Below are positions 4,841 to 48,904 of a DNA stretch of 48,904 nt, one piece after another (the stretch's first letter is position 1; every line of letters starts with the position of its first letter). The stretch is from an uncultured Bacteroidota bacterium (GTDB lineage: Bacteria > Bacteroidota > Bacteroidia > 2-12-FULL-35-15). The notes beneath the pieces were generated by a model, which was not told the DNA's origin, did no database searches, and saw only the letters and a program-made list of their open reading frames with translations. Where the stretch lies: assembly GCA_903911435.1 (NCBI GenBank), contig CAIWDF010000098.1:1-48904 (forward strand), given 5' to 3'. Position numbers and translations under genes: made by a program.

Positions 4841-5301
4841 TATTTCTTGAGGCTATTTAGTAAAGTGTAAAATTCTATTACGGGCATTTCCTTAATGTCT
4901 ATTCTGAAGCCAACTTTCTTATCCATTGCCGATTTCATTTGCCAGAAATCCCCTCCTTTTGGCATTTCTTTTTTTAATAACTGCAGCTCACTTTCGGCAA
5001 CATTTATAAATGTGTTCCAATACCTATCACCAGTAATAATTCGTTGTAATTTTAATTGGGCTATCTCCTTTCTTTTTTCATGAATGGAAATAAACTCCTC
5101 CCCAAACCCAAAATGGCTTATATACTCATCCCATAAGATACTCCACGCTTTCACTAATTCGGGAAGTGACTTTTTAGAAACACGTATCTTTTTTAATAGT
5201 AGATGACTCAAATCATCAGTTTTAAAGATTTGTAACCAATTCCAAGTTGGTAAGTCTTCAATACTACTATAAACCTGTAAAGATTTGGCCTTTGATTTCA
5301 T
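4840..5301 (-). CDS. Tail assembly protein, hypothetical (tail-chaperone position)
   Basis: A 153-residue, mostly helical, charged protein without signal or membrane segment. It lies between the tail-completion-like gene and the tape measure gene, where siphophages usually encode tail assembly chaperones. Unlike classical chaperone pairs, I see no clear slippery site or second frame extending it. Its start overlaps the preceding gene by about 35 bases, and its stop overlaps the tape measure start, so it is translationally embedded in the tail operon. The chaperone role is inferred from position only. Confidence 0.7.
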   Translation of the reverse strand: MKSKAKSLQVYSSIEDLPTWNWLQIFKTDDLSHLLLKKIRVSKKSLPELVKAWSILWDEYISHFGFGEEFISIHEKRKEIAQLKLQRIITGDRYWNTFINVAESELQLLKKEMPKGGDFWQMKSAMDKKVGFRIDIKEMPVIEFYTLLNSLKK

Positions 5302-5743
5302 CTCTTACCTCTGGTAGTATTAATTCAACAATTACTTTTTTACTTTCAGGTCCTGGTTTCATCAGGTTTGGATACAATTCATTAAAATCGGTGTCTCCCT
5401 TTTTTAGATCGGCAGAAATTTCAATGTCCTTACCATTATTAATAACCTTTCGACTTGCATATAATGCCCCAGTACGTTTTAAGGTAATGTGGTCAACTCT
5501 TGTATCGTATCCACTTGCCGCATCCTCAGTTAATTTTCGTTGTATAGTAGATGGCCGATATTGGCCTAGTGGAACACCATCACCATCAACGCCCATTTCG
5601 TAAATTTGGTACTCGAAAATCTCATCAAGTATTTGTGCCTGATTTTGATTATTTTCAAATGTTTTAAATAGAGCTTTATCAGAGTCGATTTTTCTCGTGT
5701 TTCTTAAAACCTTACCTAAAACTGTTTTTGCGAATAAGCCCAT
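5267..5743 (-). CDS. Tail completion / HK97-gp10-like protein
   Basis: I choose the ATG at 5741-5743 (158 residues, starting MGLFAK); an upstream TTG would add only two residues. The protein has a basic N-terminus and a central segment (YRPSTIQRKLTEDAASGYD... LKRTGALYASR) resembling tail-completion or virion-morphogenesis proteins that bind the end of the tail tube. The family call is tentative. The gene begins just after the terminator-like hairpin that follows the tail-tube candidate, and its end overlaps the next gene. Confidence 0.65.
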   Translation of the reverse strand: MGLFAKTVLGKVLRNTRKIDSDKALFKTFENNQNQAQILDEIFEYQIYEMGVDGDGVPLGQYRPSTIQRKLTEDAASGYDTRVDHITLKRTGALYASRKVINNGKDIEISADLKKGDTDFNELYPNLMKPGPESKKVIVELILPEVRDEIKGQIFTGL

Positions 5744-5762
5744 TTTCAAACTTTAAAAAGAA

Positions 5763-5787
5763 AGCCGGTAGCAAACTACCACCGGCT
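5763..5787 (-). terminator. Intrinsic terminator after the tail tube gene
   Basis: AGCCGGT (5763-5769) pairs perfectly with ACCGGCT (5781-5787), and an alternative inner stem GGTAG/CTACC is possible. Read leftward, the stem is followed by a T-rich run (CTTTCTTTTT). It lies between the tail-tube stop (5829) and the next start (5743), so it could end or attenuate the highly expressed structural transcript. Confidence 0.7.
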
Positions 5788-5828
5788 CTCATACACAACT
5801 AACTAAACAAACAACTATCTAAATAATA

Positions 5829-6782
5829 CTACGGAGTAACAAATGTTGTTGAATTTACTTCAGAGAAATCGAACCCAGCTTTTGTAAATGTCAGTTTAAC
5901 AACATTTGTAGTTGCGGGATCATCCGTTGTTTTATAAACTATATTGTAAACGCCTGGTGCACTTTCTGTAAAACTTGAACCTGTACCTGTTAATGATATT
6001 GAGGCGCTTGTCGTAACATTTCGAGCGGCAACATCTGAAACTAGTAAGCCCTCTACCTCTACCGGATTAAGTAACGTACCAAAATCGGTAGTTAATTTAG
6101 CGGTAACACCTGTTACGGAAATACCAGAATAAACAACTCGAACATCAAGTAATCCCTTTAGCAAGTTTAAATTTGCGGTCATTTCCTGTGAGGATATCAT
6201 TCTGAGGTCCTCGTCATTTTCGTCAATATGAAATTCGAAAGCAAGATTGATCGCTTGTACATTCTTGTCTCCAGTTTTTACCCATTTTACCGAAAAAGTA
6301 TCTTCCTCAACTCGTATAGGAGCTAAATAACCCTCTTGGCTTTCAGAACCGATAAGATTTCCATCTTTATCAATTATGTAAATTCCAACTGGAACACAAC
6401 GTGCGGCTTTTAGCTTTCCTAATAAAATTGGGGAAGCATCCTTTCTGAGAATTAAACCACTGAATGCACGAATGCCCTGGTTAATAAACATTTTTGTTTG
6501 GTCATCGAACGACTCATATAAATCGTCTCCTCGCTCATCCTTAATGTTTTTCATTTCAGGAAGTGGGAACCAACGTTTACTACCATCTGCTTGGTTAACC
6601 AAAGCGGAGAAAAATGCGTCATCTAAATAACCTGGTCCGGTTACCGTGCTTAAGTCGAGTTGATTTACGGATCCATTACTATCAAAGTATGGAACTAAAA
6701 TTATTTTTTTTGTAACAGCGAAAATTGGTACACAACCAACTCCAGTGTTATCTAATGTATTGTTGCATTTACAAGCCTTCAT
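5829..6782 (-). CDS. Major tail (tube) protein candidate
   Basis: A 317-residue soluble protein with a beta-rich composition. The N-terminal two thirds (about 1-200) is followed by a Thr/Ser/Val-rich C-terminal domain (about 210-317) that looks Ig-like, a common decoration on tail-tube proteins. It has no long sheath-like architecture. It sits upstream of the tape measure and is followed by a strong terminator, as expected for an abundant virion protein. A short Cys-rich N-terminus (residues 4-17) is unusual. The assignment rests on size, fold impression and order. An alternative is that the upstream 270-residue protein is the tube. Confidence 0.6.
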   Translation of the reverse strand: MKACKCNNTLDNTGVGCVPIFAVTKKIILVPYFDSNGSVNQLDLSTVTGPGYLDDAFFSALVNQADGSKRWFPLPEMKNIKDERGDDLYESFDDQTKMFINQGIRAFSGLILRKDASPILLGKLKAARCVPVGIYIIDKDGNLIGSESQEGYLAPIRVEEDTFSVKWVKTGDKNVQAINLAFEFHIDENDEDLRMISSQEMTANLNLLKGLLDVRVVYSGISVTGVTAKLTTDFGTLLNPVEVEGLLVSDVAARNVTTSASISLTGTGSSFTESAPGVYNIVYKTTDDPATTNVVKLTFTKAGFDFSEVNSTTFVTP

Positions 6783-6807
6783 TTTTTATAGTTTTTGTAT
6801 TAATTAA

Positions 6808-7620
6808 TTATTCTACTAAAATATCATTGCCATTCTCTTGAACAATTGCAAAGGTTTCATCCTCTTCGCATTCTTCATCGCAAGTATCGCCCTTGAAAAT
6901 TCTTAAGGTAATTGGCATCTCAACTCCGGTAAATGTTCCGGTTAAAATTGATTTGTCGGCTCCTTTATTTGCGATATAAATTCCAAATTTTGTATGAACG
7001 ATTAGTTTGTGCTTTATTTTTTTGCCATTGTCATCATACATGTTGAATACCGATGGCATTCTATTCAACTGCTTAACGAAATTCTGAGCCAACCTGTACA
7101 TTGGTTTTACTGCGTGATCAGTAATATCGTTTGTTACCTCTCCGTGGTCTGCATTGGTAAGAAAAAATAGTCTTATCTTACTTTCCCTTTCAATCAACGA
7201 ACCATCATCATCATCAAATTCCTCCTCGAATTCATCAAGAAGCCAAATTAAAGGTGTCTTCTTAAAAATGACGGACTCTTTTACAAGCTCCTCATTGGCT
7301 GCTTTTGGGGTACCATGTCTAAAATAAACTGGATACGCTTCTTGGCCAGCTGGCAACTCAGTAATTCCATCAGGAAGCGCTCCTTTAAATGTGATTGTTT
7401 TCGCATCCTTATCAATATCCTTAATATAATATTCGATAGAATCCTCATCATCATTAACATTAATAGGCATCGGATAACCTACCTGAAGGTGTTGAAAATT
7501 GCAAACGCCAGTGAGGGTAAATACACCATCACCAATGATAACCGATGTAAATGATATCGGAAACGCCATTTGTGACACGGCATTTTCAAGTATATCGGTA
7601 AGAGGCGTTTTATAAATCAT
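6808..7620 (-). CDS. Head-tail/tail structural protein, unrecognised
   Basis: A 270-residue soluble protein. It has a very acidic stretch near residues 131-142 and a CDEECEEDE cluster near the C-terminus. It overlaps the upstream connector-like gene by four bases and precedes the tail-tube candidate. In siphophage order this is where tail terminator or neck proteins are found, though it is longer than most. I do not recognise the family, and a neck or tail role is inferred from position only. Confidence 0.65.
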   Translation of the reverse strand: MIYKTPLTDILENAVSQMAFPISFTSVIIGDGVFTLTGVCNFQHLQVGYPMPINVNDDEDSIEYYIKDIDKDAKTITFKGALPDGITELPAGQEAYPVYFRHGTPKAANEELVKESVIFKKTPLIWLLDEFEEEFDDDDGSLIERESKIRLFFLTNADHGEVTNDITDHAVKPMYRLAQNFVKQLNRMPSVFNMYDDNGKKIKHKLIVHTKFGIYIANKGADKSILTGTFTGVEMPITLRIFKGDTCDEECEEDETFAIVQENGNDILVE

Positions 7621-8126
7621 ATCAAGGAACCGTATTTAACAATAAAAAAATCAGTATCTCCCAAAAATTCAGGGTAGGTTTCACCCTCACACTGACATTT
7701 ATACTGTATGGCTTTTGCCGTATTAACGTACTCATTAAATTTTGATTCACCGAATCGCATTGCCCCTCTGGAACTAATTATACTCGAATTTTCGGTAGAG
7801 GCCTGCTGATAACCTGATTGGGAATCCTTTATTTGCCTTTTACAATCCCTTTGATAAGAAATGCAAGCAAGTAATAATGGTTTCATGCCTTTGCTTTCGT
7901 GATGATTTGGAAGTAAAAAGGCATTAAAAATAGATTTAAATCTGTCCGTTTGTGGAACTCCAGAGCTTAAATCAGCAATAAATAAGTCACCTAATGTTTG
8001 ACCAAGTAACCTATAAATTGTTGGCTTTTCCCATAAATCAATGAACGATTGTAGTGATTCGTCATTCTTAGAGTCCCGAACAACTTCAAATGGTCCTGAA
8101 AAATCCGAAACTTGAATGACAATCAT
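7617..8126 (-). CDS. Head-tail connector-like protein
   Basis: A 169-residue, mainly helical protein located after the capsid genes and before the tail genes. Its pattern (helical N-terminus with YRLLGQTLGDLF, central Cys-containing helices, then a FGESKFNEYVNTAKAIQY helix) resembles small neck/connector proteins of Bacteroidota phages such as the DUF6712 type, though this is from memory. It is coupled to the next gene by an ATGA overlap. A connector joining portal and tail is the likely role. Confidence 0.6.
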   Translation of the reverse strand: MIVIQVSDFSGPFEVVRDSKNDESLQSFIDLWEKPTIYRLLGQTLGDLFIADLSSGVPQTDRFKSIFNAFLLPNHHESKGMKPLLLACISYQRDCKRQIKDSQSGYQQASTENSSIISSRGAMRFGESKFNEYVNTAKAIQYKCQCEGETYPEFLGDTDFFIVKYGSLI

Positions 8127-8127
8127 C

Positions 8128-8328
8128 TTATACTTTTCTTACGTTAACGCATTCATGTCCTTTACGACCGTCTTTCAATTCAAACTCTACTTTTGTTGAT
8201 GGGAAAAAAGTGTCATTCTTATCAACTAACTTAGTAGCATGAACGAAGTATTCATTTTTAGATTCGGATTCAATGATGAATCCGAATCCTTTTTCCTTAT
8301 TAAAAAACTTGATTGTTCCTTTTAGCAT
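8128..8328 (-). CDS. Cold-shock-domain protein (CspA family)
   Basis: A 66-residue single cold-shock domain. The RNP1 motif KGFGFI is at residues 13-18 and an RNP2-like YFVHAT at 27-32, both typical single-stranded RNA/DNA binding strands. Length matches bacterial CspA proteins. Such proteins melt RNA secondary structure and can act as transcription antiterminators. It is embedded in the virion operon, two bases upstream of the connector gene, which is unusual. It may help translation or readthrough of the late mRNA, which contains several hairpins, but that is inference. Confidence 0.9.
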   Translation of the reverse strand: MLKGTIKFFNKEKGFGFIIESESKNEYFVHATKLVDKNDTFFPSTKVEFELKDGRKGHECVNVRKV

Positions 8329-19904: not shown

Positions 19905-21839
19905 ATGAAAATTCAATTAACGGGGCTAAGACTCCAAAACTTCAAACAATTAAAAGACTTAAAAGTTCCTTTTGATGATGTTCAAACAACAATCTCCGGT
20001 GATAACGGAACTGGTAAGTCATCTATTTTCGATGCATTCACATGGTTGATGTTTGGCAAAAACAGCGCTGACGAAAAAGAATTCAACATCAAAACGCTGG
20101 ATGAGAATAACAATCCCATTCATAAACTGGAACATAAGGTTTCGGGGATGATTATTTGTGATGGAATGGAAAATCATTTGCGTAAGGAATTACGTGAGAA
20201 ATGGGTAAAAAGAAGAGGGTTTGAGGACTCAGAATTTACAGGCCATGAAACTACCTACTTTGTTAATGATGTTCCGGTAACTCAAACAATTTACAAACAA
20301 AAGATTGATGAAATCATCAACGAAAACCTTTTTAAACTGCTTACTAATCCCGCCTACTTCAATAGTATGAAGTGGACAGATAGAAGAGAAGTTCTAACAA
20401 AAATGGCAGGAGTTATTTCCGATAGCGATATCGCTGGAGATAATGCTGGCCTACAGGCATTAGTTGCACTTCTAAAAAATAAATCTATTAAAGAGCTCCG
20501 CGCTCAACTCTCCGCAGAGAAAAAAAGAATCAAAGATGAACTGGAGAAAATACCAGTATGTATCGAGGAACAAACTAACTCCAAACCGGTGGTGGAAGAT
20601 TATGCCGCTATTTCAAAACAGATTGAAAAAATCGAGTTGGAAATTAAAAGTATCGAAAAGCAAATGGATGACAAACAGGAATCATTCAAAAAGCAAAATG
20701 AGGAAATCACCACCAAGCACAATGAGTTGAACAAACTTAAAAATGATTTGCGTGATTCGGAGTCAGCCGATAAATCATCAAAGAATGAACTACTTCAACA
20801 AATCGAACAAAAGATTAACACCGCCAAAACAAACAAGCAAACGTTTGTCCGTGCCAAGGAGCAGGCCGAAAATAGCATTAGAAGTAATGAAACTCAAATA
20901 AAAGTTTTAGAAACTCAGGTGGTAAACAAGCGCACCGATTTTGAAACTGAAAATGCCAAGGTAATTATTTTTGATGAGGATAAATTTATGTGTCCTTCCT
21001 GCAAAAGACCAATGGAGGCCGATGATATCGAGTCGATGAAAACGGAACTTGCCGCAAATTTTAACAGCAATAAGTTACAAGTTTTAAATACCATCCGTGA
21101 GAAGGGTAAATCATTGAATAATGATATTTCCAACTTGAAAACAGACAATGTTTCCCTTTCTGAAAAAGTGGAGTTGAACAGTTCAAAGGTTCAGGAACTC
21201 GATAGCGAGCTTCAGAACCTCGATAGCGAAAAGCAAAAAGCGATATCGATGGAGGACACAGTTTCAGAAAAAACAAAACAACTGCAGTCGCAAATAGAAG
21301 CATTTTTTATTCCAGTGGTGGCTGCTATTAATAATAGCGAGTTAAGAGAGAAAAGAGCGGTTCTAGTTACCGAGATAGACGGTCTTAAAAAGAAGTTACA
21401 CTCAAAGGAACAAATCGAGGCAGCAGATTTAAGAATAAAGGAGTTATCCGAACAGGAAAAAGTAATGTCTCAGCAGCTTGCCGATTTGGAGAGAAGGGAA
21501 TTCAACATCGATGCATTCAATAAAAAGAAAATTGAAACCATCGAGCAACGTATTAATTCGAAGTTCCAGTTGGTTAAATTCAAAATGTTTGCCCTCCAAA
21601 TTAATGGAGGTGAAGATGAATGTTGCGACTGCTTAGTAAACGGGGTTCCGTATTCCGATGTAAACACTGCGGGTAAGGTAAATGCCGGGCTTGATATTAT
21701 AAATGCACTCAGCGATCACTACGGAGTATCTGTACCGGTATTTATCGACAATAGAGAATCCACTATAAAAATTATTCCTACCAACAGTCAGATCATTAAC
21801 CTGATTGCGGTAAAAGACCAACCATTGACAATTCAATAA
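19905..21839 (+). CDS. SbcC/Rad50-like AAA ATPase
   Basis: 644 residues of SMC-type layout. Walker A GDNGTGKSS is at 32-40. Long coiled coils flank a zinc hook, CPSC at residues 363-366 (FMCPSCKRPM). A C-terminal half-ATPase has the Walker B-like strand VPVFIDNRES. Rad50/SbcC-type ATPases hold DNA ends and work with a nuclease. It is shorter than bacterial SbcC (about 1000 residues), as phage versions are. The next genes encode RecT, a metallo-hydrolase and a DUF1064 nuclease, so it belongs to a phage recombination module. No SbcD partner was seen. Confidence 0.85.
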   Translation: MKIQLTGLRLQNFKQLKDLKVPFDDVQTTISGDNGTGKSSIFDAFTWLMFGKNSADEKEFNIKTLDENNNPIHKLEHKVSGMIICDGMENHLRKELREKWVKRRGFEDSEFTGHETTYFVNDVPVTQTIYKQKIDEIINENLFKLLTNPAYFNSMKWTDRREVLTKMAGVISDSDIAGDNAGLQALVALLKNKSIKELRAQLSAEKKRIKDELEKIPVCIEEQTNSKPVVEDYAAISKQIEKIELEIKSIEKQMDDKQESFKKQNEEITTKHNELNKLKNDLRDSESADKSSKNELLQQIEQKINTAKTNKQTFVRAKEQAENSIRSNETQIKVLETQVVNKRTDFETENAKVIIFDEDKFMCPSCKRPMEADDIESMKTELAANFNSNKLQVLNTIREKGKSLNNDISNLKTDNVSLSEKVELNSSKVQELDSELQNLDSEKQKAISMEDTVSEKTKQLQSQIEAFFIPVVAAINNSELREKRAVLVTEIDGLKKKLHSKEQIEAADLRIKELSEQEKVMSQQLADLERREFNIDAFNKKKIETIEQRINSKFQLVKFKMFALQINGGEDECCDCLVNGVPYSDVNTAGKVNAGLDIINALSDHYGVSVPVFIDNRESTIKIIPTNSQIINLIAVKDQPLTIQ

Positions 21840-21866
21840 TAAATAACAACTAATAACTAACAAAAA

Positions 21867-22817
21867 ATGACAACAGTAAATTCAAATGGTCCGGAGGTTT
21901 CAAAAGCCGAGGACAAAAAAGAGAAGCCGGTAACCACTGCAGTTGAAAAAACGATAAGTGATAGCGTATTAGCTCGGGTTGACCAGTTTCAAAAAGCTAA
22001 GGCAATTAATCTTCCCGAAAACTACAGCGCTGCCAATGCCTTAAAATTTGCTTACCTAATGATTTCGGAGGCAAAGGACAGATCAGGAAATGGCGTACTA
22101 CAAACATGCTCTCAGGCCAGTATAGCAAATGCGTTACTTGAAATGGTTATTCAGGGATTAAACCCAATGAAAAAACAATGCTACTTCGTTGCAATGGGTA
22201 GTAAGTTGACCATGATGAGAAGTTATAACGGATCTATTGCCGTTGCAAAAAGAGTGGCCGGAATTAAATCTATAAAAGGAAACTTGATTTATAAAAATGA
22301 TGTTTTCGAATATGTAATTAACAAGGATGGAAGTAAAACCCTTGTTAAACACGAGCAGGACTTCAAACAAATTGATGATTCTGAAATCATAGGAGCTTAT
22401 GCCATTGCAGTTGATAAGGATGGCAACCTAGAGCTCGAGGTTATGAATAACCAACAGATCATGAAGTCGTGGAAAATGGGAGCCGCTGGCGGAGTATCAA
22501 AAGCACATACTGAGTTCAAAGGTGAAATGAGTATGAAGACCGTTGAGAGCAGATTATGTAAGCGTATCATTAATGTCTCAGATGATGCCTCCTTATTTAC
22601 CGAGGAAAAGGAATTTACTGACGCGGAGGCTCAAAACGCAGTTGCCGTTGAAATTAAGCAGGAGGCAAATATCGAGTCAATATCCTTCGAGGAGTCGAAA
22701 GAGGAGTTAAAGGAAGAGGTGAAACCGTTAGTAAATATGGAAGAAACTCCAAAGGTAAACGGAGCGGATTCAAACGGAGGTCAAACAAATTTAGAATTAG
22801 AGAAGCCTGATTTCTAA
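21867..22817 (+). CDS. recT: RecT-like single-strand annealing recombinase
   Basis: 316 residues. The core (about 40-235) shows RecT features: SIANALLEMVIQGLNPMKKQCYFV, LTMMRSYNGSIAVAKR, and the C-terminal EFKGEMSMKTVESRLCKRI. A low-complexity acidic tail (about 250-316) resembles SSB-type protein-binding tails. RecT anneals complementary single strands during phage recombination and replication. An A-rich leader precedes the ATG with no Shine-Dalgarno, as elsewhere here. Confidence 0.9.
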   Translation: MTTVNSNGPEVSKAEDKKEKPVTTAVEKTISDSVLARVDQFQKAKAINLPENYSAANALKFAYLMISEAKDRSGNGVLQTCSQASIANALLEMVIQGLNPMKKQCYFVAMGSKLTMMRSYNGSIAVAKRVAGIKSIKGNLIYKNDVFEYVINKDGSKTLVKHEQDFKQIDDSEIIGAYAIAVDKDGNLELEVMNNQQIMKSWKMGAAGGVSKAHTEFKGEMSMKTVESRLCKRIINVSDDASLFTEEKEFTDAEAQNAVAVEIKQEANIESISFEESKEELKEEVKPLVNMEETPKVNGADSNGGQTNLELEKPDF

Positions 22818-22818
22818 T

Positions 22819-23556
22819 ATGAAACTTACCTGCATCAATACTGGCTCTGTTGGAAACTGTTATCTTTTGGATAGCGGCACCGAGGTTCTTATTTTAGAAC
22901 TCGGTGTCAACTTCAAAGATATAAAGGTTGCGCTTAATTTCGATATCTCTCGCGTTTGCGGAGCTATTGTAACTCACGAGCATTTAGACCACAGCAAGGC
23001 CATTAATGATGCGGCAAAAGCGGGAATCGATATTTACTCATCGCCCGGTACCATCAACGCAATAAATATTTCATCTCATCGACTTCATCCAGTTTTTGCA
23101 ATGAAAGAATTTATCCTTGGCGAATTTAAAATAAAACCGTTTGATGTTCGTCATGACTGTGCGGAGCCTTTCGGGTACCTGATCAATCATCCTCAGTGTG
23201 GGAATGTGCTGTTTATCACCGATAGTTTTTATTGCAGGTACACGTTTCCGAATCTAAATAACATTATCGTGGAGGCGAATTACTGTGAGGACATTATGGC
23301 GGAGAAATTCTTTTCCGGTGACCTGAATAAAATCATTCGCGACCGTGTAATGAAATCACACATGAGTTTAAAGACATGCAAGGAGCTTCTTATGGCAAAT
23401 GATTTAAAGGCGGTGAATAATATCGTACTTATCCATTTGTCGGATGGAAATTCAGACGAGCGAAAGTTTAAAAAGCAGGTCCAGGATCTAACCGGGAAAA
23501 ATGTTCACGTTGCGTCAAAAAATTTATCAATCGATTTATCAAAAATACCTTTTTAA
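22819..23556 (+). CDS. Metallo-beta-lactamase-fold hydrolase
   Basis: 245 residues with the hallmark THEHLDH (52-58), a following Asp in FITDSFY, and late His residues (IHLSDGN). This is the two-metal MBL fold of YycJ/RNase Z-type hydrolases. It starts one base after the recT stop and ends before a nuclease gene. In phages with RecT it probably supplies an exonuclease or phosphodiesterase activity, though substrate cannot be read from the sequence. Confidence 0.85.
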   Translation: MKLTCINTGSVGNCYLLDSGTEVLILELGVNFKDIKVALNFDISRVCGAIVTHEHLDHSKAINDAAKAGIDIYSSPGTINAINISSHRLHPVFAMKEFILGEFKIKPFDVRHDCAEPFGYLINHPQCGNVLFITDSFYCRYTFPNLNNIIVEANYCEDIMAEKFFSGDLNKIIRDRVMKSHMSLKTCKELLMANDLKAVNNIVLIHLSDGNSDERKFKKQVQDLTGKNVHVASKNLSIDLSKIPF

Positions 23557-23557
23557 A

Positions 23558-24028
23558 ATGAGTAATAACCTACACTGGACAGAGAAGGACTTAGAAAATA
23601 TTAACCGAAAGGGCAATGTTGATACGGTTCCTTTTGCTAAAAGTTCAAAAATAGGCACCTCATCGGTAGCCACAAAGGAGCGCAAAAGTAAATACAACGT
23701 TGCTGACGCTAAGGATAGAATGTTCAATGGCAAATTATACGACAGCAAGTTAGAAAGGGAATACAGAGCGCATTTGGAGTTATTGAAATGTGCGGATTTG
23801 CTAAAGAATAGAGTAATGACAATTCAGGAGCAAGTACAATACCCAATATTTATAAAAGGCATTAAAATATTCGCATACATTCTTGACTTCCTTGTCATCT
23901 ACGGAGACAATAGAATCGAGAGAGTAGATACCAAGGGCGTGAAAACGGCCATGTATAAGCTAAAGAAAAAAGCGGTTGAAGCTGAGTACGAGTTCGAAAT
24001 TAAGGAAGTAGTAAAAGGTCAATTTTAA
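23558..24028 (+). CDS. DUF1064-type phage nuclease
   Basis: I choose the ATG at 23558 (156 residues, MSNNLHWT) right after the previous stop; the longer frame from 23501 would overlap the MBL gene. The core contains YDSKLEREYRAHLELL, then VQYPIF, then FAYILDFLVIYGDNRIERVDTKGVKT. This E...D-F...D-x-K order is the PD-(D/E)xK-like signature of the DUF1064 family, thought to include Holliday-junction-type nucleases. It fits the recombination module. Confidence 0.78.
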   Translation: MSNNLHWTEKDLENINRKGNVDTVPFAKSSKIGTSSVATKERKSKYNVADAKDRMFNGKLYDSKLEREYRAHLELLKCADLLKNRVMTIQEQVQYPIFIKGIKIFAYILDFLVIYGDNRIERVDTKGVKTAMYKLKKKAVEAEYEFEIKEVVKGQF

Positions 24029-24061
24029 TAAGTAGTAATAACAATTAACAATAAAAGTAAA

Positions 24062-24679
24062 ATGGGAAAAGGTAACAAAAAGAAAAAACAGGAAGACGCC
24101 ATAGAAAAATTGGTAAAGCCTATCGAAATTATCAGCGCAAAGATAGTTGATGATTTCTGCGAGTACAGTTATGAAGTAAAAACTGGAGCTGGTGCCGGAG
24201 ACACCATCAAAGTAACTAACAACAAATCCAAGTTGATTAACGAGGACATGCGAATAGCGTTCTTTATGTTGAATGTTCACCTTGCAGTTATTGACGATGC
24301 ATTCGCCCACTCCAATAAGGAGATAGCCAACATCAATAAAATGCATAATGATGAATTGTCGACTTTATACATCGTTAACCAATTTAAGGTAAAAGGCTCT
24401 GAGGAAAATAGAACCGTTGTACTTACAGGTTATAAAACTTTAAACGTTGGCGATGTGATGGACTTGGTAACTCCTAAAGTTGACCTTTCAGGATTGGGCG
24501 GTTACCCTTGGTATAATGAATTATCTGAGGCGCTTGACAACGTAATTTCAGAAGTAGAGCAATATATGAACGGCAAGTTCACACTATTGCACCATGACGA
24601 TATTAATCCGAATCAGTTAACCATTGGTGACGAATTAAAAGAGCGTGAATTAACCGATGATTTAGAGGCTCACGCTTAG
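24062..24679 (+). CDS. Recombination-module protein, unrecognised
   Basis: 205 residues, soluble. Very basic start (MGKGNKKKKQED), then a mixed alpha/beta body and an acidic C-terminus. A conserved-looking LSGLGGYPWYNELSEALDNVISE segment lies near 155-180. It sits between the DUF1064 nuclease and the helicase and ends in TAG. A DNA-binding or accessory role in recombination is plausible from context only. Confidence 0.65.
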   Translation: MGKGNKKKKQEDAIEKLVKPIEIISAKIVDDFCEYSYEVKTGAGAGDTIKVTNNKSKLINEDMRIAFFMLNVHLAVIDDAFAHSNKEIANINKMHNDELSTLYIVNQFKVKGSEENRTVVLTGYKTLNVGDVMDLVTPKVDLSGLGGYPWYNELSEALDNVISEVEQYMNGKFTLLHHDDINPNQLTIGDELKERELTDDLEAHA

Positions 24680-24683
24680 AATA

Positions 24684-25895
24684 ATGACTGGCGACTTATC
24701 AAATACAATCGAATTGTTTCCCCCTAAACAGATGGCCACACAACAGTTCACCCCGCGACCTTATCAGGTAGAAGCGATTGAGAAAGCGATTGAGTTTTTC
24801 AAAAGTGGAAAGCAAGAAAACGCAATTGAAATCCTTCCTACCGGTAGCGGAAAATCCGTTGTGATTGCTAATATCGGAATGGGATTGGAAGGCAAGACGA
24901 TTGTATTTCAGCCGTCAAAAGAAATCCTCGACCAGAATGTCAGGAAATTCAGGAGCTACGGTTATCGCTGTGGGGTTTATTCCGCATCGGCAGGAAAGAA
25001 GGTAATTGATAAAATTACATTTGCAACCATTGGAAGTGTGGCCAGTAAGCACCATTTATTTCGTGACATTAAGAATATCATTATTGACGAGTGTCACCTT
25101 GTAAATGCTCAAGGGGGAATGTACCATGACTTTATAAAAGCTATTCACGGTGCTAAAGTCCTTGGCCTTACCGCTACTCCTTATCGTTTAGCTTCAGGTG
25201 CTGAAGGTGCGGAGCTTCGCTTCCTAACTCGAACACGCCCAAGGATATTTAATAAGGTTCTTTACTTTATTCAGAACAGCGTATTATTTGATGCTGGCCA
25301 CTTGGCAAAGTTAGAATACTTTACCAAGGACGTTATCGAAAGAAGTTTACTTACCATGAACTCTTCAGGTACCGACTTCACCGATTCAAGTTTGAAAGCA
25401 TATTACCGTAAAATCAATATGCCAAAAATTACTATTGATTTTGCAAATCGGTTACTTGGCAAAAAAAAGAATCTTCTTGTTTTCTGTGCTTTGGTTGATG
25501 AGGCAAATAATATTTCGCTTGGTGTTCCTGGTTCCGTAGTCCTCACTGGAGAAACTCCGGCAGGTGAACGTGAAAGAATCCTATCGCAATTCAAAGCAGG
25601 AATTATTAGGTGTGTTATCAATGTCGGAGTACTTACAACTGGATTCGATTATCCTGAATTGGAATGTATTTTAATGGCACGTTCAACAATGAGTTTAGCA
25701 TTGTATTATCAAATTTTAGGACGTGGAATGAGACCGCATCCCGATAAAACAAGCTGTTGGATTGTCGACTTAGGAGGTAATTATAAATTCTTTGGCAAAA
25801 TAGAAACAATGGAAATAAAGCAGACATCTACTGGACTGTTTTACATAGCAAACAACGGAAGGCAGTTGACTAATATTCCGTTCACGAAAAACTAA
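24684..25895 (+). CDS. SF2 DEAD/DEAH-type helicase
   Basis: 403 residues with motif I PTGSGKS (52-58), motif II DECH (135-138), motif III TATP (163-166), and a C-terminal RecA domain including GVLTTGFDYPELECI and motif VI QILGRGMRP. Such helicases (RecG/UvsW or restriction-type relatives) remodel branched DNA using ATP. The internal ATG at residue 18 (MATQQFTPR) is an alternative start. Its last base is the first base of the next gene's ATG. Confidence 0.9.
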   Translation: MTGDLSNTIELFPPKQMATQQFTPRPYQVEAIEKAIEFFKSGKQENAIEILPTGSGKSVVIANIGMGLEGKTIVFQPSKEILDQNVRKFRSYGYRCGVYSASAGKKVIDKITFATIGSVASKHHLFRDIKNIIIDECHLVNAQGGMYHDFIKAIHGAKVLGLTATPYRLASGAEGAELRFLTRTRPRIFNKVLYFIQNSVLFDAGHLAKLEYFTKDVIERSLLTMNSSGTDFTDSSLKAYYRKINMPKITIDFANRLLGKKKNLLVFCALVDEANNISLGVPGSVVLTGETPAGERERILSQFKAGIIRCVINVGVLTTGFDYPELECILMARSTMSLALYYQILGRGMRPHPDKTSCWIVDLGGNYKFFGKIETMEIKQTSTGLFYIANNGRQLTNIPFTKN

Positions 25896-27355
25896 TGCAG
25901 TTAAAAAAATACGATTTAGTTATTGCCGATTCGCTTCGGGAACTGATAGCAACAACGAACATCGCCATAGAATACGGATATACACCTTTAGGAGGTTATC
26001 GCCAAATAGAAAAAGACGGAAAATATTTACAAACAATAGTACTAACAAACAAACAAATAACTAAGAACATGCAAAAATTTAAAGTAACAGAACTAGTAGA
26101 TACCCGAATGGAGGGTAGCGGACTTGAAGTAGGTAAAGTCTACACCGGAACCCTGATGGCGAACGGTAATATTTCCTACACCGACAGAGCAGGTGTTGAC
26201 TGGATATTCTATCCGAACGACACGTGCGAATTAATTAATGAAAAAGGCACGGAGGAAATTACTAAGCCAATTCAAGTATTTGAGACTAATTTTTTTCAAC
26301 AGCTTTCTCAACTAATGAATGACAAACAAATTGTAAAATTCACCATTACAAAGGTTGGTGAAAATATCACTCTGTTGGTAAACAAGGATAACAAACTCAT
26401 CAATATGACTGGCACACCACCCGAAGTTGACGAGGCTATCTTATCTCATTTGAAAGTTTCTCCAACTGAAACTAAGGAACTAGTTATAAACGTTACTGAC
26501 GCTCCTAAGAAAGATAAGGAAGAAGAGGAGGAAGAGGAGGAGGAAGAGGGAGAAACTTCCACAGAAAAAAATAAAAAGAAAAAGGAAGCTCGCAAAGGAG
26601 GCAATACCGCTGTTCAGCAGGAAGCCACTAAAATTAAAAGTGATAAGAAAAAAGCTGATGCTCCGAAGCCTGGCAAAAAAAGCAAATATGATTTGAAAAT
26701 CCAAGTTGAAAAAGCCATTGCGGATAAGGATTTAGTGAAGGCGCAACAAATTGTAACTGATGCGAACAAAGGAGGAGGATTACCTAAATTAAAAGTTGCT
26801 GAACTTCAAAAATTAATTGATAACTATAAACCAGATGGCGACACCGCATCGACCGAAGACAAAGTACAAAAATGCCGTGTCTGCGGATGTACTGATGACG
26901 ACTGCGCACAATGCGTAGAAAAGACTGGTACTGCTTGCCACTGGGTAGAGGATGATTTATGTTCCGCATGCGAAGTAAATAATGGTGCCGTGATTATTAA
27001 CCCGAAATCGGGAGAGGAAGGCCAACCGCTTGTTACTCCAATTCAGGAAATAAAAAAAGAGAAAAAAGTTAAACCCGAAAAAAATACTCTCCCTACTTCC
27101 AATACCGAAACTATTCCAGAAGTAAAAAAGGAGGAGCTGGCCAAGGTTGATAACTCGGAAAAGTTCAAGGAGCTAATGGGATTAGGAACTCATGCGATGA
27201 CAGATTTTGCCCTTGGTGACAATAAATACGAGAAGTCTATGGAATACTATAAGCAAGCTATGGAAATCGCACCTGAAGGAGATAAGACCGCTGAGGAGGG
27301 ATTTATTAAGGCTCAGAAGTGGGATACTCGTTTAAAAGAAATGATGAAAGATTAA
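25895..27355 (+). CDS. Multidomain PRTRC protein E-like protein with zinc and TPR-like regions
   Basis: 486 residues. Residues 1-48 resemble DUF1737 (YDLVIADSLRELIATTNIAI...GGYRQI). Residues 59-120 form a small beta domain. Residues 128-200 (FETNFFQQLSQLMNDKQ, then a TGTPPEVDEAI segment) match my knowledge of PRTRC system protein E. A Glu-run/Lys-run linker spans about 204-262. Eight-odd Cys at 327-359 (CRVCGC...CAQC...CSAC) form a probable zinc module. Residues 423-480 look TPR-like. The sequence just before Met59 resembles an intergenic leader of this genome, suggesting two ancestral genes fused. It heads the ubiquitin-like cassette. Confidence 0.7.
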   Translation: MQLKKYDLVIADSLRELIATTNIAIEYGYTPLGGYRQIEKDGKYLQTIVLTNKQITKNMQKFKVTELVDTRMEGSGLEVGKVYTGTLMANGNISYTDRAGVDWIFYPNDTCELINEKGTEEITKPIQVFETNFFQQLSQLMNDKQIVKFTITKVGENITLLVNKDNKLINMTGTPPEVDEAILSHLKVSPTETKELVINVTDAPKKDKEEEEEEEEEEGETSTEKNKKKKEARKGGNTAVQQEATKIKSDKKKADAPKPGKKSKYDLKIQVEKAIADKDLVKAQQIVTDANKGGGLPKLKVAELQKLIDNYKPDGDTASTEDKVQKCRVCGCTDDDCAQCVEKTGTACHWVEDDLCSACEVNNGAVIINPKSGEEGQPLVTPIQEIKKEKKVKPEKNTLPTSNTETIPEVKKEELAKVDNSEKFKELMGLGTHAMTDFALGDNKYEKSMEYYKQAMEIAPEGDKTAEEGFIKAQKWDTRLKEMMKD

Positions 27356-27387: not shown

Positions 27388-27612
27388 ATGGCATTACAAG
27401 TAACAAATTTACAAAGGAAGTTTATCATCAAGAACGAGGATAAAAAGGATATTGAGTTGAAAGACCCGAATCCTGACATGACACCGGAAGAGGTGATTAA
27501 ATTCTACTCTTCTGAATATCCAGAGCTAACAACTGCTAGCTTATCAGGACCGACCGTAAAAGGCGAAGTCGCTGTATATTCAGCAAGTGCACAAATTGGA
27601 ACAAAAGGATGA
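27388..27612 (+). CDS. PRTRC system protein C, ubiquitin-like (Prok_Ub)
   Basis: 74 residues. The pattern LQRKF, then DPNPDMTPEEVIKFYSSEYP, ELTTASLSGP, and an end IGTKG is that of PRTRC protein C, a beta-grasp ubiquitin-like protein. It ends exactly at Gly74, so a C-terminal Gly is ready for adenylation by the ThiF/E1-like protein without trimming. An AGGGAG-type ribosome site lies 8 bases upstream, rare in this genome, suggesting high expression. The next frame overlaps its stop (ATGA). Conjugation targets are unknown. Confidence 0.88.
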   Translation: MALQVTNLQRKFIIKNEDKKDIELKDPNPDMTPEEVIKFYSSEYPELTTASLSGPTVKGEVAVYSASAQIGTKG

Positions 27613-27815
27613 AAGTTGAAGACTATTTAAAAAAGAAACAACCGTGTCAGCCAACAGAAAAAATATCAGCAAAGGAGAACCTACCAGAGTTCCACAACAG
27701 AATCTTGAACATTCTCAACAGAGTATCAAGGGACAGCCATCAAATGATGGACGTGGAAAACTATCAGGAAGAGATGGCAATAGTTCCAAAAGAGCTCTTG
27801 TGCCATTTACCTTAA
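27609..27815 (+). CDS. Overlapping ORF: possible true N-terminus of PRTRC-F
   Basis: A 68-residue frame whose ATG overlaps the protein C stop as ATGA, the coupling used elsewhere in this operon. Its product (MKVEDYLKKKQPC..., with an amphipathic LPEFHNRILNILNRVSR) looks like a genuine protein start. The long PRTRC-F frame begins 35 bases later in another frame with a low-complexity Gln/Ser/Asn-rich sequence. A -1 shift at CCAAAAG (27786-27792) would join this N-terminus to the PRTRC-F body. Confidence 0.4.
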   Translation: MKVEDYLKKKQPCQPTEKISAKENLPEFHNRILNILNRVSRDSHQMMDVENYQEEMAIVPKELLCHLP

Positions 27816-28921
27816 CTCCCGAAAGGAAAATGCTTACACAGCTTGCGATAATGTCATTTCAAGGAGTGGAACATCCACTGGCAACTGAGGAACAGCAATT
27901 GAAAGCCATCGCTGATATTTATCCAGTCGCTAAATCGATAAATGGTTTCAAGGAAAATAAAAGGTGGTCAATAAATAGTAGTCCAGCTGAGGTACTTCAC
28001 AGCATCCTAACCTCCACTATAAAATCAAATGATTATGAGGAATGGGATGTTGAACTGGAAGACGGTAGATATTGTTTGAAAGTAACTCAATATTATGGGT
28101 GCCCGAATAAATTATTCATACCGATTAATTTCCTTGCTAAAGTCAATCGTTCCCATCCTCGATTACACGAACTGCTTATTTACACGTTTCGTATTCTCCA
28201 AAATATAATCGGAGTGGAATCAATAAGTACTTGGGTGCAGCATAATAAAACAAACTACCAACACGGACATGTCTTTGATTGGGTGAAAAGTAGAGAGGAG
28301 GAACTTTGTAATCACGAAGAGCACGAAGGCGGAAATATGGATCAGGAGGAAATTATAGAGCTTCAGGATTTAAGGGAGTCACTCGATTACTATTCCTTTG
28401 GTGGTATTCCACAGAAATATGCTGCTTTACTTCGAGGTTTAGTTAGCGTAAAGAAGTTTGAAAAGACGTTAAGCTCCTTTCTAATAATGAACGAATACGA
28501 ATCCGTTGCATTACCTTTTATGAATAAAGTTTTGGAGTTGGCAAAAACAAAATATGAGATGCATGAGGTATCGGTTTCACCTTGGGAATCAGGAGAGGTA
28601 ACTCCAAATGAATACATGTCGATAGTTTGGACAGATAACCAACACGATACCTTCTTTAACATTATGGAGGGCAATATCGACCAAGTTGCCGAATGTGCTG
28701 GAAGCGTACCATTCTGTTGGAAGGTAATTCTTAATGAAAAAAATAAAAGCATCGTTAACGAGTACATTCACTTTTGCGATTTACTGCTTTCAGTTTTCGA
28801 TGAAGGGAAAGAATTTATCAAGGTAATAAATAACGATTTGACTTCTAAAAATAAAACTCAGGAGCTTGCACCCAAAGTAGTAAACAATAAAACAACTAAA
28901 AAACTAATAGATATTTTATGA
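27644..28921 (+). CDS. PRTRC system protein F-like
   Basis: 425 residues, soluble. The body from about residue 52 (LVPFTLTPERKMLTQLAIMS) to the end matches the general size and context of PRTRC protein F, the least characterised member. There is an acidic central part (CNHEEHEGGNMDQEEIIELQ), a Trp/Phe-rich helical C-terminal half, and a Lys-rich tail. It lies between protein C and protein B and overlaps B by four bases. The first 50 residues are suspect (see the overlapping frame at 27609). Assignment comes mainly from gene order. Confidence 0.65.
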   Translation: MSANRKNISKGEPTRVPQQNLEHSQQSIKGQPSNDGRGKLSGRDGNSSKRALVPFTLTPERKMLTQLAIMSFQGVEHPLATEEQQLKAIADIYPVAKSINGFKENKRWSINSSPAEVLHSILTSTIKSNDYEEWDVELEDGRYCLKVTQYYGCPNKLFIPINFLAKVNRSHPRLHELLIYTFRILQNIIGVESISTWVQHNKTNYQHGHVFDWVKSREEELCNHEEHEGGNMDQEEIIELQDLRESLDYYSFGGIPQKYAALLRGLVSVKKFEKTLSSFLIMNEYESVALPFMNKVLELAKTKYEMHEVSVSPWESGEVTPNEYMSIVWTDNQHDTFFNIMEGNIDQVAECAGSVPFCWKVILNEKNKSIVNEYIHFCDLLLSVFDEGKEFIKVINNDLTSKNKTQELAPKVVNNKTTKKLIDIL

Positions 28922-29601
28922 GTGATTTAACAGAAACATACAGTCCTAGTCACCAAATTGTCGTTTACAAGAACGATCACGGTAACAATGGATACGTTGA
29001 GCACAGAGAAATAGTTAACATTGAAGGAAAGGACTATTTGTCTGAAGGAAAGCCATTGACGAAAAAAGCCTTGCGTGATATGCTCGATATAGTCATTGAT
29101 TCAAAAAATACTGTCTTCGCAACGGTGAAGGAGTTAATCCCGGATAACATTTTATATTATGACCCAAGACCAGGAAGGTTGGTTTTAGTGTGGTGGCAAA
29201 AACCAAGCGAAAGGCAATTATCAGGAATGTACAAACGAGCAGTAAAATATAAGTGCCCTTCACTTATCTATGTTCTAAAGGATGATTCAATTTCCATCTA
29301 CGCAATGAAGGGAATTAAGAAACCAACATTAAAAACGGCTTTGTATCATCTTCCAGTTCCTAATATCCATGACGATGGTATGGTATGTATGGGAAATGTG
29401 AAAAAGCCAAAGCACACCGTTGAAATATCGGAACTTGTAAAGTTATGGGAAAATTCCTTCTGGCTTTCGAAGTTTGATGAAGGATTAATCAGTGAGAGTG
29501 AATTCAAAAAACTGAAACAAGCCATTCGAATGAAAGTTCCAATAAAGCAATTAAAGCCATTTCGTAAAACATTAAAGCATATCCTCGATGAAAAAAACTG
29601 A
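28918..29601 (+). CDS. PRTRC system protein B, E2-like
   Basis: 227 residues. The C-terminal half contains PVPNIHDDGMVCMGNV (146-161), which matches the ubiquitin E2 active-site signature HPNI...G.ICL: N149 is the oxyanion Asn and C157 the candidate thioester Cys, with H144 nearby. Upstream, DPRPGRLVLVWWQKP resembles the E2 beta-meander. It would accept the protein C ubiquitin-like from the ThiF protein and pass it to a target. It overlaps F and the ThiF gene, implying coupled translation. Confidence 0.85.
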   Translation: MSDLTETYSPSHQIVVYKNDHGNNGYVEHREIVNIEGKDYLSEGKPLTKKALRDMLDIVIDSKNTVFATVKELIPDNILYYDPRPGRLVLVWWQKPSERQLSGMYKRAVKYKCPSLIYVLKDDSISIYAMKGIKKPTLKTALYHLPVPNIHDDGMVCMGNVKKPKHTVEISELVKLWENSFWLSKFDEGLISESEFKKLKQAIRMKVPIKQLKPFRKTLKHILDEKN

Positions 29602-30379
29602 TAATACTCTATACCACTACACAGCGAGTGAATTAATAAACCCTCAACACCCCGTTACGGTATTTGTGATTGGATGCGGAGGTACTGGCAGTCAAATGCT
29701 AAACAACTTGGCTCGAGTTCATAAAGCATTGATTGCAATCGGGCATCCGGGATTACACGTTACCGCTTTTGATGGTGACATCATTACGGAGGCGAATTTA
29801 TCGAGACAATTATTTTCATCTTCAGAACTTGGATTGAATAAGGCGACAGCATTGATTACACGAATTAACCGATTCTATGGCCTAAGATGGAAAGCTCAGC
29901 CAATACAATACGAACTTAAAAGTGATAGAATCAACTGTAATATCTTAGTGACCTGTGTAGATAATGTCGCCATTCGCTTAGATATTGGAAAAGCATTTAA
30001 ACGAATCATACAACATGGTTCTGGAGCTGATAAGCGAAACTTCTATTGGATGGACTTAGGAAATAGTCGATTCACTGGCCAGATAGTTTTAGGAACTCGT
30101 GGCGAAATTAAACAGCCTTCCAAAACTAGGAATACCATTAAACACCTTCCGGTGATTACGGAGCTATTTCCATATCTTAAGAAGTTTGAAAAGGAAGACC
30201 AAGGACCTAGTTGCTCACTTGCTGAAGCATTGACTAAGCAGGACTTATTTATCAACTCTATTTTAGCTCAATATGGTAGTAATTTGATATGGAAAATGTT
30301 TCGTGAGTTACGGTTGAATTATCACGGTGTGTTCATTAATTTACAGACTTTGAATACCAATCCTATTAAAGTAAAATAG
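29588..30379 (+). CDS. PRTRC system ThiF-family E1-like protein
   Basis: 263 residues with a Rossmann adenylation fold. GCGGTGS (29-35) binds ATP, FDGD (61-64) and NLSRQLF (70-76) are the E1/ThiF acid and Arg-finger motifs, and TCVDN (122-126) is the crossover strand. PSCSLAEALTKQD (207-219) carries Cys209, the best candidate catalytic Cys. E1/ThiF enzymes adenylate the C-terminal Gly of a ubiquitin-like protein. It overlaps the E2-like gene by 14 bases and ends in TAG. Confidence 0.88.
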   Translation: MKKTDNTLYHYTASELINPQHPVTVFVIGCGGTGSQMLNNLARVHKALIAIGHPGLHVTAFDGDIITEANLSRQLFSSSELGLNKATALITRINRFYGLRWKAQPIQYELKSDRINCNILVTCVDNVAIRLDIGKAFKRIIQHGSGADKRNFYWMDLGNSRFTGQIVLGTRGEIKQPSKTRNTIKHLPVITELFPYLKKFEKEDQGPSCSLAEALTKQDLFINSILAQYGSNLIWKMFRELRLNYHGVFINLQTLNTNPIKVK

Positions 30380-39673: not shown

Positions 39674-40369
39674 CTAAATAATAATGCGGTTTAAAATATT
39701 TCCAGTAAGAGGAATCGACCTTCCTGATTTCCAGTTCGAAGGTTGGCCTGGTTCCGATTTCGCTTTTTTTTTAAACTGGCCCGTGCCGGTATCAAAAAGC
39801 CAATCAGGTTGAACCCACTCGACAATATCATAATGGCAGGAAAGGAGGATACATTTTTTACCTTTGTTTCTCCTCCATCCTTTTGCAAAGGCCATCGCAC
39901 CAATCTTTGCTATTTGTCTGTCCACTACAGACGTAAACTCATCAATGATCACTTCGCTGTTTGCCTCAGTCATTACCCGTGCAAGTCCCGCTCTGAATTG
40001 CTGACCATTACTTAATGCATGGAAAGGTCGTAACCAACTGGGAACATCTCCAAGGCCGACATTTGCTAATGCTCCGGTGACTGTATTAAAATCGGCATCG
40101 GGACAAAGTGATTCTACTATTGGTAAATTCTTATCCCATCCGGAATATAGGTCTAAAATTTTACCACCATTAAATAGCAAATTGCCAATGGAGGTTTTAC
40201 CGGTTCCGGACGGACCTACTATTAAACCGATTTGCCATTCGATATCTTCAATCGGTAGGTTTGCATCGAGATTAAATTCATTGCCTCGCTCGGCATTGAA
40301 CAGCGATTTCACACGTGCACTTCGGTACCCGTTATGGTCTGCAGTTTTATTTCTTACTTGTATGATCAT
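39674..40369 (-). CDS. ABC-type ATPase (N-terminal part of an ABC-GNAT fusion?)
   Basis: 231 residues. Walker A GPSGTGKTS (52-60), ABC signature LSNGQQ (119-124), Walker B EVIIDEF (139-145) and H-loop SCHYDI (H179) make a complete soluble ABC nucleotide-binding domain without membrane segments. From about residue 200 (QFKKK) onward the sequence looks off-frame. A -1 shift at the A9 run would continue into the GNAT frame. It overlaps the ParB-like gene by four bases. Soluble ABC ATPases fused to GNAT occur in phage genomes as I recall. Confidence 0.8.
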   Translation of the reverse strand: MIIQVRNKTADHNGYRSARVKSLFNAERGNEFNLDANLPIEDIEWQIGLIVGPSGTGKTSIGNLLFNGGKILDLYSGWDKNLPIVESLCPDADFNTVTGALANVGLGDVPSWLRPFHALSNGQQFRAGLARVMTEANSEVIIDEFTSVVDRQIAKIGAMAFAKGWRRNKGKKCILLSCHYDIVEWVQPDWLFDTGTGQFKKKAKSEPGQPSNWKSGRSIPLTGNILNRIII

Positions 40370-40899
40370 GTGACTACTATTTTACATTTATATCCTCGTT
40401 CGGTTAATTCATTAAATACTTTCTCCTGGTCCTGATCATCCGCACACATAACAATTACTCCGTACTGACTTTTAGCGGGGATGCCTTCATCTTCAAAATT
40501 GCCGACAATTTCATTTACAACCAATGGCGCCAGTCCGAACTCCTCCAGATTTAAATCCTTAAACTCGAGTTCGATCATTTCCATATCCCACTCTCCGGAA
40601 TGAGTATTGCTAATCAGGTTATACTCCTTTACTTCATTTAAAGTAAGTGCACGGTTTGGAACTCGTACATCTATTAACTCCTCACCTCTTCCAACTAGCC
40701 TTAAAACCCTTACTCTCTTATCACCGCTGATAATTGTATTATCAGTGTTGATGGCAGGAATTTCCACAAGATTGAACTTATGCAAATATTGCACGAGTTG
40801 CTCACGCTTTGAATCGGTTATTGTTCTGGGGTTAAATTCGAATGGTACCAAATCAATTACCTTTCGTTGTTCCGTTTTCCACTTTAGTTTTTTCATCAT
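40366..40899 (-). CDS. ParB/Sulfiredoxin-like domain protein
   Basis: 177 residues. NPR (23-25) and ISGDKRVRVL (57-66) match the ParB-N/Srx motifs (NPR...GxxR). The middle (about 90-125) is a helical region where ParB proteins have HTH-like helices. No full KorB-type DNA-binding domain is evident. In phages such proteins are found near terminase or methyltransferase genes and may have CTPase or nuclease activity. Here it is coupled to the ABC ATPase. Confidence 0.82.
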   Translation of the reverse strand: MMKKLKWKTEQRKVIDLVPFEFNPRTITDSKREQLVQYLHKFNLVEIPAINTDNTIISGDKRVRVLRLVGRGEELIDVRVPNRALTLNEVKEYNLISNTHSGEWDMEMIELEFKDLNLEEFGLAPLVVNEIVGNFEDEGIPAKSQYGVIVMCADDQDQEKVFNELTERGYKCKIVVT

Positions 40900-48749: not shown

Positions 48750-48904
48750 CTGGTAGGGAATTTATTAGTTGTAAGTTATTCGTGTAAATTTCATTTCTTC
48801 TTATGTTCATCTCGACATATCCATCCTCGATGTACCAAGTCAAATTATCAATTTTGCATTCTTGACCGTCCGAATCATCAATGGTATTTTCGTTCTTTAC
48901 CTTA
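48739..48904 (-). CDS. 3' end of the distal tail gene (continues from base 1)
   Basis: The last 141 bases here repeat bases 1-141. Read leftward in the same frame as the gene at 1-2429, they continue past the join with eight codons (INSLPDGN) and TAA at 48739-48741. It is not a separate gene. Confidence 0.9.
   Translation of the reverse strand, partial: KVKNENTIDDSDGQECKIDNLTWYIEDGYVEMNIRRNEIYTNNLQLINSLPDGN
48764..48904. repeat. Terminal direct repeat, right copy
   Basis: Exact second copy of bases 1-141, marking the circular join. See the left copy. Confidence 0.95.

Follow-up and report, generated by a model that had tools for sequence, protein, structure and literature searches.

An E2-like protein encoded in a phage genome keeps the Asn-Cys pair of the Prok-E2_D family and has lost its downstream histidine

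The gene at 28918–29601 (+) of the window (the whole stretch of DNA that was analysed, 48,904 nucleotides) encodes a protein that resembles ubiquitin-conjugating (E2) enzymes. A preliminary description of the locus had reported a canonical E2 active-site signature in its product, PVPNIHDDGMVCM (residues 146–158; 29353–29391, +), with Asn149 and Cys157 at the catalytic positions and His144 nearby. The coordinates and residue numbers were right. The ORF begins with ATG and has 227 open codons, its antisense strand contains many stops, and the codons of Asn149 and Cys157 lie at 29362–29364 and 29386–29388 (both +). The window is an entire contig, encoding portal, terminase, major head and tail-length proteins together with an integrase and a serine recombinase. 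An exact direct repeat of 141 bases joins its two ends in sequence (1–141 and 48764–48904), which marks it as a complete phage genome of ~48.8 kb, either circular or with terminal redundancy. A ParB-like protein (phrog_620) is encoded on the opposite strand at 40366–40899, far from the PRTRC block to which the E2-like gene belongs.

The 227-residue protein (B) matched the Pfam family Prok-E2_D (PF14460) with an E value of 9.8e-26 and 90.9 bits, against a gathering cut-off of 25, and is a member of it; that an E2-like protein is present in a phage is thus upheld by this match and by its position within a complete phage genome. The NCBIfam model PRTRC_B (TIGR03737) was matched over its full length (99.8 bits, E 1.4e-28), at a score below the equivalog cut-off of 131.45. 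Both models were matched by all 42 aligned relatives. Neither eukaryotic nor solved E2s matched B at the sequence level, nor did the UQ_con family, and a profile sequence search of the PDB returned no E2, only irrelevant matches with E > 1. The E2-like assignment of this family and its active-site Cys are prior art: the protein of operon type row 6d was assigned to the E2 superfamily across a conserved Cys (Iyer et al., 2006; PMC1779556). As that paper already aligned the Prok-E2_D family with E2s across the Cys, the motif is a repeat of the 2006 family prediction and no newly recognized signature.

We then considered how far the Asn-Cys pair is conserved. Complete proteins from Bacteroidota genomes, plasmids and phages gave an alignment of 121 relatives, to which four were added (125 in total). 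Asn149 and Cys157 were invariant in 125/125 homologues, and Pro146, Asn149, Cys157 and Gly159 in 121/121 of the complete relatives. Cys157 is the sole invariant cysteine; B therefore has the conserved active-site Cys of Prok-E2_D, and the preliminary description had picked the right residue for a test of thioester transfer. The spacing from Asn149 to Cys157 (8 residues) is that of N78 and C86 in yeast Ubc4. When 42 family members were compared by hhalign, unguided, with five yeast E2s, residues N149–M158 fell on Ubc4 N78–L87 with a score of 25.85, and an identical match (score 26.9) was obtained without the phage lineage. The best score among 100 column-shuffled E2 profiles was 19.0, and decoy profiles of ThiF, PRTRC-C and PRTRC-A from the same operons scored 7.7–14.9. 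Among ORFs of at least 100 amino acids from the window and the fetched loci, the pattern N[IV]x3Gx[VILF]C occurred in 108 Prok-E2_D ORFs and in 1 unrelated ORF among ~3,240 others (3 more apparent "non-B" matches came from the window gene and from the relative closest to it, which was present in two copies).

A short motif could in principle resemble that of E2s in a protein that has no relationship to them, and the hhalign match does cover 10 columns only, with the fold scores described below being middling. Such an accident is hardly credible given the invariance across 125 divergent proteins, the shuffled and decoy controls, the specificity of the motif and the prevalence of E2s in the structural comparisons. 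On these alignments the resemblance is more than chance.

The word "canonical", in contrast, overstated the case. The Asn and the Cys eight residues apart correspond to those of the yeast E2s, but the HPN His is missing, its place two residues ahead of N149 being taken by Val (V147). His144 stands five residues before the Asn and not two; with a His in about half of the relatives (His in 59/121, Tyr in 47/121) and the wrong position, it was rejected as the active-site His. Pro148, to which the motif owes its "PNI" appearance, was found only in the window protein and in its nearest relative, L039. As for Asn149, it is the equivalent of the HPN Asn, although its description as catalytic fits less well. 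Work on Cdc34 with Uba1 indicates that the chief role of this Asn is to order the loop close to the active site (PMC8062481), and by that analogy N149 is better termed an active-site residue and is more probably structural.

The family has a second histidine to consider. The 2006 analysis noted that the type 6d protein is without the classical His and proposed an "absolutely conserved" downstream His as its replacement (PMC1779556). We identify this residue with column 188 of our alignment, because that column holds the sole near-invariant His after the Cys; the placement is ours. His occupies it in 121/125 relatives. The window protein does not have it: the residue is Glu188 (codon 29479–29481, +), within FDEGL where the family has FSHL, and residues 167–220 are devoid of His. 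The column is also changed in L135 (Glu), L036 (Gly) and L039 (Asp), the last of which reads FTDHL, with a His one residue past the family column. All four exceptions keep the Asn and the Cys, which by the alignment makes the Asn-Cys pair the core of the family and the His not absolutely required for its retention. H151 was first seen only in the window protein and L039; a move of the His to this position, making up for its absence at 188, was rejected as weak, as both H151 and H188 are present in L136.

Loss of the column-188 His could reduce the activity of the enzyme, and this is the main doubt. The phage protein might then be an impaired or pseudo-E2 that serves the complex of Ubl and E1 as scaffold or adaptor, in the manner of UEV/RWD proteins. 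The replacement by E188 of a His present in nearly all relatives, in a stretch free of His, would fit this, as would the weaker conservation of B between the two phage loci, at 44% identity against 63–64% for its partners. We nevertheless consider it rather unlikely. Inactive bacterial E2-like domains have lost the Cys (PMC1779556), whereas the window protein keeps C157, N149, P146 and G159; the three other relatives with a changed His also retain both residues of the pair; and in Cdc34/Uba1 no side chain acts as a general base in transthiolation (PMC8062481).

An overlay on E2 structures had been proposed in the preliminary description. The AlphaFold2 model of the window protein had a pLDDT of 85.9 and a pTM of 0.72. 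Plain Foldseek against the PDB gave no match at E ≤ 0.001 for this model (E ≥ 0.35), and none at that threshold for a control model of a typical His-bearing relative (pLDDT 89.3). On structural re-alignment, 49 of the 50 rows for the window model were E2/UBC proteins (Z 5.8 to 4.3), residues 61–212 aligning to E2 residues 1–147 over ~120 residues with an rmsd of ~4–5 Å. For the control, the top 18 rows were E2/UEV proteins (Z 4.9 to 3.8), and from Z 3.5 downward the rows were unrelated folds. E2s therefore dominate the structural rows, but with Z at most 5.8 and weak Foldseek matches; an E2 fold of B is supported and not proven, because the absolute Z values are middling. DSSP assigned residue 150 of the model to a strand or bridge state, and residues 155–156 likewise, with the same pattern in the control. 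If residue 150 pairs with 156, N149 and C157 would face each other. In a Foldseek comparison with viral models, several uncharacterized phage proteins matched the fold of B (BFVD A0A7R7G2H5, A0A6J5P0Y8, A0A516MLX1, A0A6J5NU73 and A0A172Q0C7, the last a protein of Acinetobacter phage ME3; E 2e-8 to 5.5e-3), which suggests that these may be further phage-borne E2-like proteins.

The genes of the block around B are all on the forward strand. The first encodes a protein with weak similarity to PRTRC-E (25895–27355; TIGR03741, E 0.08, below the cut-off), whose homologue in L130, a locus of the phage-like module found in another species of the genus (L039/L130; G406:C114), is 67% identical over the matching stretch. 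It is followed by a PRTRC-C/Prok_Ub ubiquitin-like protein (C; 27388–27612) that ends in QIGTKG and matched PF14454 (E 3.9e-24) and TIGR03738 (64 bits against 45.95). A protein in the position of PRTRC-F (27644–28921, true start uncertain) is 34% identical to its L130 counterpart and had no match in family profile searches; the protein in the same position in phage BgVeeders33 is TIGR03742 PRTRC_F. Between C and F there is a small ORF of 68 amino acids (27609–27815; 8347–8553 in L130), in another frame than the F ORF. It overlaps C at the 3′ side and F at the 5′ side and is conserved in the related phage (36% for the L130 homologue), and several PRTRC plasmids have size-matched small CDSs in the same place. 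Downstream of B lies a PRTRC ThiF-family E1-like enzyme (ThiF; 29588–30379), which scored 264 bits with TIGR03736 against a cut-off of 144.75. The ORFs form a tight run in which, from C onward, neighbors overlap by 4 to 14 bases, B sharing 4 bases with the preceding ORF and 14 with ThiF.

PRTRC_ThiF and PRTRC_C, both above their cut-offs beside B, are as expected of a PRTRC system. Across the 125 loci, B was accompanied by C in 112 and by ThiF in all. GTKG is C-terminal in most relatives of C, and in the window protein it is free at the end, so that no processing would be needed to expose its Gly. In ThiF, residues D62, R73, K85, D125 and C209 were invariant in 120/120 relatives. R73, K85 and D125 fit the ATP-site residues of MoeB (PMC12355090) by an inferred correspondence, and C209 (codon 30212–30214) is the likely E1 cysteine. 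PRTRC_A, the JAB protein, was absent from the window, and no Prok-JAB was detected in the whole 4.19 Mb assembly, in searches whose controls gave a signal in 8 of 14. PRTRC_A matches were present in 6/125 loci and not found in most Bacteroidota loci, as judged by a home-made profile that may miss divergent copies. In the PADLOC defense-system libraries B and C had no match, and ThiF matched generic E1-E2 models weakly.

A ThiF-like E1 and a beta-grasp Ubl are also the ingredients of sulfur-carrier chemistry, in which C and ThiF would work like ThiS/ThiF or MoaD/MoeB and C157 would take part in a sulfur relay. This appears very unlikely: there is no thiamine or molybdopterin gene among the annotated neighbors, B and ThiF occur together at every locus, and the 2006 analysis sets operon type 6d apart from sulfur pathways (PMC1779556).

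The module is flanked by genes for a RadD-like helicase (24684) and DnaB (31631). The stretch upstream of the PRTRC genes (19905–25895) encodes an SMC/RecF-like ATPase, RecT, a metallo-beta-lactamase-fold protein, a DUF1064 protein and the RadD-like helicase, a recombination/replication module.

B is rare in annotated phages, with 2 of 50,697 records matched by the query used, one of which was the cultured Burkholderia phage BgVeeders33. Six IMG/VR contigs carry the system as well, and scans of viral contigs with the single protein and with ThiF gave no close relative. In a tree the window protein grouped with L039 (support 0.97) and next with the IMG/VR protein L120 (0.89). The L039/L130 module has the gene order of the window, E-C-small ORF-F-B-ThiF and then DnaB; its B shares P148, N149, H151 and C157 with the window protein, but is only 44% identical to it and keeps a His in FTDHL. 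BgVeeders33 (OK665841.1) likewise has a phage-borne E-C-F-B-ThiF set near DnaB. It differs in having PRTRC_A as well and in keeping the downstream His, and its B is only ~25% identical. The genes at 3737–8223 of this phage locus (L025) match the PRTRC_E, F and A models together with B and ThiF, and most are annotated as hypothetical.

Compared with type 6d of Iyer et al. (2006), PF14460 and TIGR03737, the window module has in common the family, the GTKG Ubl, the ThiF E1, a helical protein and the Cys; it differs in scoring below the TIGR03737 cut-off, in being without the downstream His, in having no JAB found and in residing in a phage. With eukaryotic E2s such as Ubc4, B shares the spacing of Asn and Cys, a Gly and small hairpin between them and a trend toward the E2 fold, whereas it has no HPN His and no UQ_con match, and has another helix/loop after the Cys. 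Cap2 of type II CBASS offers a bacterial E1-to-E2 thioester relay like that proposed here, but is a fused E1-E2 that conjugates the CD-NTase in anti-phage defense, and is no phage gene.

Our preferred reading, in which we have reasonably good confidence, is that B belongs to prokaryotic E2 family D as a divergent member encoded by a phage, and relays the GTKG Ubl from ThiF via C157. The observation made in the preliminary description is confirmed, and its interpretation partly supported. Our analysis shows family membership, residue invariance, operon linkage and a fold trend, whereas we infer all of the chemical steps, and the target; in the literature searched, no biochemistry of PRTRC-type conjugation was found. 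ThiF would bind ATP and adenylate the C-terminal Gly of the GTKG protein C, which would then be held as a thioester, probably on C209 of ThiF, and be passed to C157 of B. C157 would then hand the Ubl to a protein of the phage or the host, in which an amine (or another nucleophile) would accept it, and N149 would keep the loop of the active site in order, the role that the HPN Asn has in E2s. Because the gene sits between those for the RadD-like and DnaB helicases, targets in DNA replication or recombination are suggested; a target in host defense may be considered as well. Since neither the phage nor the remainder of the assembly yielded a JAB-type deconjugase, the tagging may be one-way. A bolder form of this proposal is that the phage owns a Ubl cascade, wired to replication, free of a deconjugase and working with the Asn-Cys pair alone now that the family His is gone, that irreversibly tags replication or host defense proteins; this we regard as doubtful, and put forward tentatively.

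Beyond the 2006 prediction, our analysis adds that B is encoded in a phage, with its gene placed between those of a RadD-like helicase and DnaB, that the Asn and the Cys are strictly invariant across 125 proteins, and that the "absolutely conserved" His has been lost or has shifted in the window phage and three other relatives. In the literature searched, all bacterial E1-E2-Ubl systems with an experimental description of conjugation are of other types (such as Cap2), and the complete phage-borne E1-E2-Ubl set is a minimal system of small size. With His-bearing and His-less B proteins both occurring in nature, the role of the proposed active-site His of this family is directly testable.
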